DNA from: Candidatus Zixiibacteriota bacterium
Lineage (GTDB): Bacteria; Zixibacteria; MSB-5A5; WJJR01
Length of the DNA: 34,640 nucleotides
NCBI GenBank assembly: GCA_016199865.1
Contig: JACQFV010000008.1
Coordinates: 1 to 34,640 of the forward strand
Reading direction: 5' to 3'
Positions 1 through 26,260 of the stretch are shown piece after piece (position 1 is the first letter of the stretch; each line of letters begins with the position of its first letter). Under the pieces are notes generated by a model, which was not told where the DNA came from, did no database searches, and worked only from the letters and a program-made list of their open reading frames with translations. The position numbers were made by a program, and so were the translations under genes.

Positions 1-78
1 GAAGTTGGACTGTGGGGATCAGCATCGGATTGTAGAGCCCGCTGATTGATGAAGGCGGGCAATGAACAAATTGAGAGT

Positions 79-135
79 GTGCGCGTCACGCGCCCTCGCG
101 TGACGCTCCGCCACCCGAGGGCGGGTGGCGGGCAC
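79..135. repeat. 57-nt paired-hairpin element, copy A
   Basis: The outer stem GTGC/GCAC (79-82 with 132-135) encloses two hairpins of 24 nt each, separated by one base. Hairpin 1 is 83-106, with a 9-bp stem and loop GCCCTC. Hairpin 2 is 108-131, with a 9-bp stem and loop GAGGGC. The two loops are exact reverse complements. The same geometry recurs at 25794-25850 with compensated stem changes. It lies just upstream of the propeller gene and overlaps the annotated GTG of the longer ORF, which argues against that start. It is seen directly in the sequence; its function is unknown. Confidence 0.8.
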
Positions 136-202
136 TTTTCGGGTTGCTGGCGGAGAGGATCAATTGTTGGACGGACTGAACGCTAACCAGAAGGGGGTAA
201 CA

Positions 203-1881: not shown

Positions 1882-1951
1882 GTAGTGCTGCCACACGTCC
1901 TCGTGTGGCAGCCCATTGCATTCAAGGCGTCACACGAGGACGTGTGCCGCC
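1882..1951. repeat. paired-hairpin element, diverged copy B
   Basis: Hairpin 1 (1888-1911) is again exactly 24 nt, with a perfect 9-bp stem and loop GTCCTC. Hairpin 2 (1926-1951) has a 10-pair stem with one mismatch and loop GAGGAC, the reverse complement of loop 1. The linker is longer (14 nt) than in copies A and C, and no outer stem closes it. A GTAG lies just 5' of hairpin 1. It sits between the lipoprotein gene and the phosphatidyltransferase gene, so the ORF-track start at 1885 inside it is unlikely to be real. Confidence 0.7.
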
Positions 1952-2013
1952 ACCGCCGTGGAGCGCAACAAGAATCGGGGCCTTTTCAACGCGCCCCTTC
2001 CTTGACGGCCCCC

Positions 2014-20712: not shown

Positions 20713-20828
20713 TAGACCTTCCAACATAATGACTCGTAAATGGGTGGACGACGGGCGTCCTTCCGGGTGAATCCTCGCCCGGCGCAGCGAAGGCCAGGCG
20801 GGGACGCCTGGCCTCCACATTGAAACCG
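20713..20828 (-). repeat. ~120-bp dispersed element, copy 2 (inverted)
   Basis: This is the reverse-complement counterpart of 12499-12629. Shared blocks, read on the minus strand, are CGGTTTCA, GGAGGCCAGGCGTCCCCGCC, CTGCGCCGGG, GAGGATTCA, GGACGCCCG and ACGAGTCATTATG. It lacks the 14-nt insertion of copy 1. It contains the strong hairpin GGCCAGGCG-ggga-CGCCTGGCC. It lies between proS and the rimP promoter and may also act as a transcription barrier. Confidence 0.8.
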
Positions 20829-22977: not shown

Positions 22978-25479
22978 ATGTCGAGTAAACGACTCTACGA
23001 GGTCGCCCGCGACCACAATCTGTCCGCCGACGCCTTGATGGCCCTGGTCAACCGGCTGGGTTTCGACGTTCGCAGCCATATGAGCGTGGCTGAAGACGAC
23101 CTTCTCGCGGCCATTGAAGCCGAGTTCGGCAAACAGAAAGATGCTCTAAAAGCCGAGATCGCCCTGCGCGAGCGCAAGACGCGCGAACGCAAGGCCAAGG
23201 CACGCGAAGCGGCCGAATTGGAAGCGCAGCGTGCCGCCGAAGTGCATCAGGCCGCTGAGAAAGTGCGGCTGGAGGAAGAAGAACGCAAAGCCAAGGAGGC
23301 GGCGGAAACCGCCGCCAAGGCCGCGGTCGCCGCGGCAGAAGCCGCCCGGCTTCATCAGAAAAAAGCCCCGGTCGCTCCGTCCGGGCCGCCACTCCCGTAC
23401 CGACCCAAGCCAGCCCAGGTGGGCATCGTCGGCCGTCCGGGCGGTGGTGTCGTTCGGCCTCAGTCGATTGCGGGTCGACCCGGGGGCGCCACGGCGCTCG
23501 CGCCGGGACGTCCTGGGGCTCTCGCGTCCTCGGCGCCCGCGGTGCCGGGTGCGGAAGTCGGCCGTCGGCGTCGCCGACGTTCGTCGAAAAAGAAGGGATC
23601 GCGTGTCGACCAGCAGGAAGTCGCGGCGAGTTTCCGGAAGACGATTGCGGAACTGGGCACGCGGGCAAAACCCAAACGCCGCCAGAGACGTGACGGTGAG
23701 CCCGGGACCGACTTTGCAGAGCCAACGAAGACAGTTGAAGTCAACGAGTTCATGTCGATCGCGGAATTGGCCCACAAAATGGGCGTCAGCCCCACAGAGG
23801 TCGTTGCCAAGTGTCTCGAGTTGGGGATGCTCGCCACGGTGAATCAGCGGCTCGATCTGGACACCATCGAGACCATAGCGATCGAATTCGACTACGCCAT
23901 CAAGCAGGTCGAAGAGATCGGCGAAGAGGTCTTGGGTGAAGACGAGGAAGAAGCGGGAACTCCAGGCCCCATTCCGCCCGTCGTGACCATCATGGGCCAT
24001 GTCGACCACGGCAAGACCTCGCTTCTGGACCATATCCGCACATCGAACGTCGTCGCCGGCGAAAAAGGGGGGATCACCCAGCACATCGGCGCTTATTCCG
24101 TGCAGACCCAGCGTGGGCGACTCACTTTTCTGGACACGCCGGGGCACGAAGCATTCACGGCCATGCGCGCCCGGGGCGCGCAGGCGACCGACATCGTCAT
24201 CCTCGTGGTGGCGGTGGACGATGCCGTGATGCCGCAGACAATCGAGGCCATCGACCATGCCAAGGCCGCCGGGGTCCCGATCGTGGTCGCCATCAACAAA
24301 ATGGACCTGCCTGGCGCTGATCCCGAGCGGGTCAAGACCCAGTTGTCCGATCACGGGTTGATTCCCGAAGAATGGAGCGGCACGACCATTATGGTGCCCG
24401 TTTCGGCCCGAACCGGCATGGGCGTCGACAAACTCTTGGAAATGGTCCTGTTGCAGGCGGAACTGCTGGAGTTGAAGGCCGCGCCCGACCGTCGCGCGCG
24501 CGGCGTCATCATCGAAGCCCAGCTGGACCGCGGACGGGGCCCCGTGGCTACGGTACTGGTCAAGTCCGGCACGTTGCGCGCCGGTGATTACTTTGTCACC
24601 GGGCCGTACTGGGGCCGGGTGCGCAACATGGTCGACGAACGCGGCCGCGCGGTCATCGAGGCCCCGCCGGCAACGCCGGTACAGGTTACCGGTTCCTCGG
24701 GGGTGGCTCAGGCAGGAGATTCGTTCGTCGTCTCAATCGACGAGCAGCAGGCGCGGCATATTTCCCAGATTCGTGAGCGCCTCCGCCGCGAGCAGACTTA
24801 CCGACGCATCGCCAAGCTGAGCTTGACCAATGTGTACGACCGCATCAAAGAGGGGGCGATCCGCGATCTCAAAATCATCATCAAGGGCGACGTCGACGGG
24901 TCGGTCGAAGTGCTCGCCGATACCTTGACCAAGATCAAGTCCGACGAAATCCAGGTCAACGTCATCCATCGTGGCGTCGGCGCGATCAGCGAAACGGATA
25001 TCCTCCTGGCGGCCGCTTCGGAAGCGGTCGTGATCGGGTTCCATGTACGCCCGGATTCACGGGCGCGCGAGCTGGCGGCGCGCGAAGGCGTTGACGTCCG
25101 CCTGTACGACATCATCTATGAGGTCGAATCGGATATCCGCTCAGCCCTCGAGGGAATGCTGACGCCGATCGAGATTGAGGAACGGACCTGTGAGGTGGTC
25201 GTGAAAAACATCTTCAAGATATCGAAAGTGGGCACGATCGCGGGTTGCGAAGTCACCCAGGGCGTGGCCCGGCCCCGTGATCAGGTCCGAATCGTTCGCG
25301 ATGGCGTCACGATATACACCGCGGCGCTCCAGACCGTGCGCCGCTTCAGCGACGACGTCAAGGAAGTGGCGGCGGGGCTGGAATGCGGCATCAAGATCGA
25401 AAACTATAATGACATCAAAGTTGGCGACGTGTTCGAGTTGTTCCGGGTCGTCCAGCAGGAGCGCAAACTCACGTCGTGA
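22978..25479 (+). CDS. infB: translation initiation factor IF-2
   Basis: IF-2 is the GTPase that recruits initiator tRNA and joins ribosomal subunits. The protein is 833 aa. The N-terminus has an IF2_N domain ([26 protein letters not shown]), then a charged Ala/Glu/Lys/Arg coiled segment, a Pro/Gly-rich linker and a basic run ([13 protein letters not shown]). The second IF2_N-like domain ([25 protein letters not shown]) precedes the G domain, which has G1 GHVDHGKTS (about 340), G3 DTPGHEAF and G4 NKMD. Domain II and the C-terminal C1/C2 domains follow ([34 protein letters not shown]). The GTG of ylxP overlaps its stop by 4 nt. Confidence 0.97.
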
Positions 25480-25751
25480 TCGGCAGCGCCCGCCTCGAGT
25501 TGCGCCTGCCGGGATGCCACAGTCTGAAAGAGAAGCGCGGCATCCTCAGGCGGTTTCTGGAAGGAACGCGGCGCTCCTACGGCGTCGCCATCGCCGAGAT
25601 CGACGCCCAGGATGAATGGCAACGGGCGGTGGTGGAAGCCGCCGCCGTCGGCAACGAGCGCGCCCATCTGCACAGCGTCCTCACCCGAGTGGTCCACGAT
25701 GCCGACCGTCCCGGTGAGATGATCCTGGTCGATTGCGAATTGTCCGTCTGA
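25476..25751 (+). CDS. YlxP/DUF503 family protein
   Basis: This is a 91-aa protein of the DUF503 (YlxP-like) family, recognised by RLELRLPGCHSLKEKRGILRRFLEGTRRSYGVAIAEIDAQDEWQRAVVEAAAVGNE. It is commonly found between infB and rbfA, as here. It starts with a GTG whose GTGA overlaps the infB stop, so it is probably translationally coupled. The molecular role of the family is not established; a link to ribosome assembly is suggested only by this conserved position. A structured 57-nt element separates it from rbfA. Confidence 0.88.
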   Translation: MIGSARLELRLPGCHSLKEKRGILRRFLEGTRRSYGVAIAEIDAQDEWQRAVVEAAAVGNERAHLHSVLTRVVHDADRPGEMILVDCELSV

Positions 25752-25793
25752 TCCCGTAAGAGCATCCTGTAAGATGACCGAAGTATACAAACT

Positions 25794-25850
25794 GTGCACG
25801 CCAGGCGCCCTCGCCTGGCGTCACGCCACCCGAGGGCGGGTGGCGTGCAC
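25794..25850. repeat. 57-nt paired-hairpin element, copy C
   Basis: The geometry is the same as at 79-135. The outer stem is GTGC/GCAC (25794-25797 with 25847-25850). Hairpin 1 is 25798-25821, with a 9-bp stem and loop GCCCTC. There is one linker base, then hairpin 2 at 25823-25846, with a 9-bp stem and loop GAGGGC. Three stem pairs of hairpin 1 and one of hairpin 2 differ from copy A, and all four changes preserve pairing. It sits inside the long operon between ylxP and rbfA, so it would be transcribed. Confidence 0.8.
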
Positions 25851-25897
25851 CTTGTTTGTGAGTGTCGGAACTATCATTTCATTAGGGCCCGAACGAT

Positions 25898-26260
25898 ATG
25901 AAGCCTGCTGACCGCAACCGACGGGTCGCCGAGGAAATGCAACGGGTCGTCGCCGAGACGCTGCATCGGGACATCAAGGATTTTGATCTGCGGATGGTCA
26001 CGGTGATCCGCTGCGAACTGGCCCGTGATTTCAGTGAGGTGATCGTGCGGTACTCGGTTCTAGGCAATGAGGACATGCGCCGCCAGTGCGCGACGACCTT
26101 GTCCAAGGTCGCCGGATTCGTGCAACGGCAGGTCGGCCTGGCCATCAAACTCCACCGCGTCCCCCACGTGCGTTTCCAGTTCGATGCGTCGATTGAAGAA
26201 GGATTGAAGCTGGAACAGTTGTTTGACCGGATCACGCGCGAACGCAATGCCGATCAGTAG
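25898..26260 (+). CDS. rbfA: ribosome-binding factor A
   Basis: RbfA is a KH-like 30S maturation factor that acts on 16S rRNA. The protein is 120 aa, a normal length. It has the family entry segment RNRRVAEEMQRVVAETLHRDIKDFDLRMVTVIRCELARDFSEVIVRYSVLG and the C-terminal strand-turn HRVPHVRFQFDASIEEGLKLEQLFDRI, which matches the family's P.L.F..D.s...g..i..li pattern. ATG 25898 has no strong Shine-Dalgarno. The 146-nt gap before it carries the paired-hairpin element. nrnA starts 14 nt before its stop. Confidence 0.95.
   Translation: MKPADRNRRVAEEMQRVVAETLHRDIKDFDLRMVTVIRCELARDFSEVIVRYSVLGNEDMRRQCATTLSKVAGFVQRQVGLAIKLHRVPHVRFQFDASIEEGLKLEQLFDRITRERNADQ

Follow-up and report, generated by a model that had tools for sequence, protein, structure and literature searches.

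Tagged double hairpins in a Zixibacteria genome probably form a new family of REP doublets

Introduction

A 34,640-nucleotide stretch of DNA from an uncultured member of the class Zixibacteria (contig JACQFV010000008.1; hereafter the window) carries two copies of a 57-nt element made of two adjacent hairpins. The question that this locus raises is what kind of element such a double hairpin is. The original prediction, made from the letters of the window, recognized no described family and offered two readings, a functional folded RNA or a single-stranded DNA transposition substrate. The copying of REPINs is attributed to a transposase that acts on single-stranded DNA, the RAYT (REP-associated tyrosine transposase). 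The terms REP doublet, BIME, and REPIN are defined in PMC3116915 and PMC6006769. Published REPs carry GT(A/G)G heads, are accompanied by RAYT genes lying between inverted REPs, and show compensatory changes (PMC2817692, PMC3116915); in single-stranded form, REPs are cleaved and rejoined by RAYTs, and in the systems that were tested the tag is important for cleavage (PMC8266576). Qualifying RAYTs were found only in gammaproteobacteria in one such study (PMC2817692), and our search of the literature available to us found no report of REPs in Zixibacteria.

Results

The double hairpins of the window are listed in Table 1. The 57-nt layout was predicted for copies A and C, and the sequence reads exactly so. 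In both copies, each hairpin is a perfect 10-bp stem around a tetraloop, CCCT or AGGG; the 6-nt loops described originally are this tetraloop plus the closing G-C pair. Folded as single-stranded DNA, copy A takes on the very structure that was proposed (-31.6 kcal/mol, z = -7.9), while copy C at its minimum forms the two hairpins and leaves the 4-bp outer stem open (-30.0 kcal/mol, z = -6.7). Doublets with complementary loops occur twice in the window versus never in 60 Markov-shuffled windows. Copy C lies just after infB, between a DUF503 gene (25476-25751) and rbfA (25898-26260), and the D copy has a prolyl-tRNA synthetase-like gene on one side and rimP on the other. The conserved rimP-infB-rbfA region holds two of the four window doublets, both between same-strand genes.

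Table 1. Positions of the doublets, their parts, and the predicted RAYT gene. Positions are those of the window unless a contig is named.
Feature	Position	Strand	Sequence or structure	Basis or remark
Left shell end of copy A	35..52	+	Degenerate TIR GAGCCCGCTGATTGATGA at -44	Analogy with other A copies; alone not above chance
Copy A, 57 nt (subfamily A)	79-135		GTGC + 24-nt hairpin + 1 nt + 24-nt hairpin + GCAC; GTGC GCGTCACGCG-CCCT... / CGCCACCCG-AGGG	
5' tag, REP unit 1 of copy A	79..82	+	GTGC	Originally described as half of an outer stem
REP unit 1 hairpin of copy A	83..106	+	10-bp stem, loop CCCT	Sequence, DNA folding
Inverted REP unit 2 hairpin of copy A	108..131	-	10-bp stem, loop AGGG (CCCT on - strand)	
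Tag of REP unit 2, copy A	132..135	-	GTGC on - strand	
Right shell end of copy A	159..176	-	Degenerate TIR	Weak in copy A
E-type REP doublet (subfamily E)	1885..1953	-	GTGG CGTCACACG-TCCT / CTGCCACACG-AGGA ... GCAC	Longer linker
TIR of D copy shell	20715..20732	+		
D-type REP doublet (subfamily D)	20744..20818	-	GTGG AGGCCAGGCG-TCCC / GCGCCGGGCG-AGGA ... CCAC	Second loop with insertion
Left TIR of copy C shell	25760..25777	+	GAGCATCCTGTAAGATGA	Flanked by TAA
Copy C, REP doublet (subfamily C)	25794..25850	+	GTGC-hairpin(CCCT)-hairpin(AGGG)-GCAC; GTGC ACGCCAGGCG-CCCT	Sequence, DNA folding
Right TIR of copy C shell	25874..25891	-		
Subfamily F doublets			GTGC GCGCCACGCG-CCCC	61-bp doublets, unrelated flanks
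Predicted RAYT gene	contig C122, L050:1006-1452	-		Marginal profile match, HUH and catalytic Tyr, structure relative

The source genome (2.24 Mb in 207 contigs) holds 28 copies of the exact pattern. A covariance-model search for more copies had been proposed originally, and a model built from 15 of the 28 gave 134 matches over both strands at E <= 0.1 (a lower bound; 150 candidates were scored). From sampled genome stretches we parsed 72 copies with both hairpins, comprising 62 distinct cores with compensated stems, and about 14 additional D-type copies were found through a shared flank. At least 80 copies are scattered through this one genome; since copies were gathered by stretches, these totals are lower bounds. 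Among 57 relatives, the model found weak matches only, in four genomes (G001, G004, G021, and G057), which points to an amplification local to this species. REPs are usually amplified within species.

The copies vary around a common plan. If 10-bp stems are assumed, the one-base spacer that was predicted, and that is present in copies A and C, is found in 41 of the 72 copies, and the linker reaches about 19 nt in others. Four copies carry a similar self-pairing insertion of ~28 bp (CCTTCAGGGTAAATCCTGCAGGATGAACCC) in the loop of hairpin 1 (L094:3459-3543, L097:2008-2092, L101:2067-2149, and L105:2031-2116), and loop 2 is interrupted in the D copy of the window and in L311. At L045:3367-3665, three A-type doublets form a tandem array that repeats every 120 bp or so; between them lies a GTCAGGAGC...GCTCCTGAC hairpin of a kind that also occurs close to another Y1 gene (L049).

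Covariation in the stems was judged against shuffles and against structures slid along the alignment. In 15 distinct cores, 96.7% of cells were paired versus 91.3% after shuffling, and 30 cells had changed on both sides versus 12.8 after shuffling and 0-2 in slid structures. In the 62 distinct cores, 97.8% were paired versus 85.6%. The compensated changes noted originally between two copies are true and extend to these further copies. The pair changes are real, but they mostly sort by subfamily and so are not independent events; the independent events are fewer than the counts. The outer four bases behave differently from what was first described as an outer stem. Among the 72 copies, the end pairs are GTGC/GTGC in 44, GTGG/GTGG in nine, and GTGG/GTGC in another nine. 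In the last nine, GTGG stands opposite GTGC and the ends do not pair fully, so a pair of opposed tags is a better reading of these positions than a stem.

The genome encodes five IS200-like (Y1) genes, several with their own adjacent hairpin repeats. The gene on contig C122 is, by its sequence, a predicted RAYT of the HUH/Y1 type, although its profile score is marginal: 79.7 bits against NCBIfam NF047646 (REP-associated tyrosine transposase; cut-off 80), and likewise just under the Pfam cut-off (22.4 versus 23 bits). H61, H63, and Y119, the HUH motif and catalytic tyrosine, are invariant across 23 aligned proteins, and the best solved relative of the family is E. coli TnpA-REP (4ER8, E = 1.2e-16). 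GTGC-tagged hairpins with CCCT loops border the gene on both sides; they are in direct, not inverted, orientation, and unit 2 of copy A is of the same type. The association extends to the class. RAYT homologs were found in 69 of 133 genomes by an alignment-based scan, unlike a single-protein scan of named genomes, which gave no matches. At 13 of 29 homologous RAYT loci, inverted hairpins with YCC/GGR-type loops enclose the gene, one on each side and no more than 170 nt away (background, 10 such hairpins in 66 kb), while the other 16 homologs have no such pair by this criterion. The tags of the flanking hairpins are mostly GTGGGC, with GTGCGC also present. A 26-nt REP unit, GTGGGCGGCAGAYGYCCHCRTCTGCC, occurs in 50 of the 133 genomes, compared with zero for the reversed-pattern control among the genomes listed. 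When 30 of the sites were read, six proved to be inverted doublets, and in some of these GTGG at one end faces GTGC at the opposite end. Three more Y1 transposase genes (L046, L047, and L048) have hairpin repeats of their own nearby: CCCAGGGC-TTGC every 72 bp, AGCGCAGACA-GGAA, and CCCTGAC-CTTG/CAAG.

We conclude that the element is very probably a REP doublet (BIME/REPIN), that is, two GC-rich hairpins with YCCY-type loops and GTGC or GTGG tags, placed in inverted orientation, and we infer that it is mobilized by a RAYT. Two inverted hairpin-forming units recur in many extragenic copies, and a RAYT gene in the same genome carries the same hairpin, which gives a described family to an element for which none had been recognized. 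The GT(A/G)G tag is represented by GTGG in the D and E copies and in most RAYT-flanking hairpins; the GTGC of the A, C, and F copies departs from the canonical GTRG and counts against this assignment. As to the two readings offered originally, the single-stranded DNA transposition substrate fits best, while a functional folded RNA found no independent evidence.

Most copies are embedded in a larger unit. A shell of ~150 bp bounded by terminal inverted repeats (TIRs), TNA-GASCCTCTAACARAATGA, encloses the A, C, and D copies. It is possible, though on balance we doubt it, that what moves is a DDE-type MITE of this size with the double hairpin merely as its cargo or center. The 13-mer of the TIR occurs 58 times at <=1 mismatch versus once for the reversed control, the TIRs keep fixed distances from the core (-34/+41 in C, -44/+42 in A, and -44/+29 in D), the arms are conserved within subfamilies, and the flanks are mostly TNA. 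A C-type shell at L119:1920-2010 has both inverted repeats but only a single GTGCA where the doublet would be, which is consistent with loss of the doublet between its two GTGCAC ends. However, flanking trinucleotides are identical at seven of 23 sites versus 4.1 by shuffling (p = 0.07), so target duplication is suggestive only, and our search for a transposase with the same ends in the draft genome (DDE_Tnp_1 family) yielded a single gene, and the 1.9 kb surrounding it contain no TIR of this kind. Moreover, F-type doublets have no shell, other E copies have a different outer repeat (GGGCGTGTTGAAAAA), and a MITE would leave the RAYT association unexplained. The ends also resemble those of an integron attC site (TCTAAC...GTTAGA). 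Judged by its sequence, this candidate was rejected; the inverted repeat runs outward past the core of an attC site, and its final R/Y positions depart from the attC consensus.

In a survey of its sites, the TIR enclosed doublets of types A, C, and D as well as a double hairpin with CCCTCTCCC, and it also lay beside nested E copies. One and the same shell encloses REPIN types that differ from one another (A, C, D, and the separate CCCTCTCCC double hairpin). Speculatively, and in our estimate improbably, REPINs may be exchanged inside a second transposable unit, which would mean that two transposition systems, a RAYT and a TIR transposase, act on one composite element.

A role for the host at the mRNA level could also maintain pairing, with the doublets serving as transcription terminators or stabilizers of 3' ends. 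Such roles have been proposed for REP elements in other bacteria (PMC3733652). By crude gene calls on 83 matches, 39 copies lie between co-directional, 14 between convergent, and six between divergent genes, with 11 within genes and 13 at stretch edges without assignment. All intergenic gaps, these copies included, show a similar mix (109/31/23), so there is no strong bias towards gene ends; the copies are mostly intergenic, without clear preference for such ends by these calls. A terminator between the DUF503 gene and rbfA would cut a conserved cluster, and a host role explains neither the tag nor the RAYT association. We give it little credence.

The loops were predicted to be complementary and to allow a kissing-loop fold. 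Complementarity holds for copies A and C and for 35 of the 62 distinct cores in all, but not fully for the other 27 (CCCC/AGGG, TCCC/AGGA, and others). It follows from the presence of two inverted copies of one unit: a single rule, under which one unit of tag and YCCY-type-loop hairpin is used twice in opposite orientations, accounts for the outer “stem” and the loops alike. Since loops and tags often vary without compensation, a conserved kissing loop is unsupported. The element is also nearly symmetric, and the covariance model matches on both strands because the opposite strand reads in the same order, with the CCCT-type loop first and the AGGG-type loop second. A functional structured RNA with kissing between its two hairpins is a highly improbable reading. 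The stems are compensated, many loops are complementary (including a paired change from CCCT/AGGG to TCCT/AGGA), most copies lie outside genes, many of them between co-directional genes, and copies C and D lie inside apparently transcribed gene clusters, but 27 of the 62 distinct cores have loops that do not pair fully, a strand-specific RNA needs no symmetry that scores on both strands, the element has a high, species-specific copy number, loops of this kind are expected from the RAYT link with no need for kissing, and a comparison with Rfam, also proposed originally, gave no match for the element (at gathering cut-offs, the only match in the window was a tRNA).

Discussion

The best explanation for the double hairpins is that they are REP doublets of a new family in Zixibacteria, an element of a known kind and not a new class of RNA. 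They can be compared with several characterized systems. The REPINs of Pseudomonas fluorescens SBW25 (PMC3116915) are likewise two inverted REPs in extragenic locations, with high copy number, compensatory changes, and a RAYT in the genome. In SBW25, however, a single long hairpin surrounds a spacer, with the conserved REPs forming its outer portions, whereas the Zixibacteria doublet is two separate, almost fused hairpins, many of them within an outer TIR shell. E. coli BIMEs with TnpA-REP (PDB 4er8; PMC8266576) share the REP/iREP pairs, the tag at the hairpin foot, and an HUH/Y1 enzyme of the same family, but have a GTAG tag and bulged stems in place of GTGC or GTGG and perfect stems. The GTAG and CGTC REP dimers of Di Nocera and colleagues (2013; PMC3733652) also have 1-2 bp between partners and include heterodimers with different stems, and some lie inside longer palindromes (A. 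variabilis GTAG-15 and H. neapolitanus CGTC-1). They differ in tag and phylum, and the shell in Zixibacteria encloses several REP types. The RAYT-associated REPs of Stenotrophomonas (PMC2817692) consist of a head immediately followed by a perfect GC-rich palindrome with an interruption of 2-4 bases, and inverted REPs flank the RAYT gene; the head in that case is GT(A/G)G.

A mechanism can be proposed on this basis. The RAYT, an HUH/Y1 transposase, would recognize tag and hairpin as single-stranded DNA, cut near the tag, and rejoin the DNA, and the doublets would spread as non-autonomous passengers. The agent of spreading may be the RAYT encoded on contig C122 or a lost relative. If the enzyme needs or reads the hairpin, the stems would be kept paired for that reason. 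Loss of long, perfect palindromes may explain why the two halves remain slightly unlike. In this genome, many doublets were evidently also copied as part of the TIR-bounded unit of ~150 bp. That the A, C, and D copies have evidently been copied together with their shell weighs against a RAYT as the agent; RAYTs are not known to copy TIR shells along with REPs.

With this assignment, tagged REP doublets and RAYTs are extended to Zixibacteria, with a defined unit, GTGS plus a hairpin with a YCCY-type loop, found across the class and GTGC as a variant tag. As the tag is thought to guide the RAYT cut, the natural GTGC/GTGG pairs provide a ready set for tests of the guide-cut rule. One candidate “new RNA family” is removed from the list, and interest now centers on the shell, which encloses REPs of more than one type. 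At five sites (L131, L140, L143, L145, and L318), the same TIR bounds a different double hairpin, CCCTCACCC...CCCTCTCCC/GGGAGAGGG...GGGTGAGGG, again with an outer stem and two hairpins.
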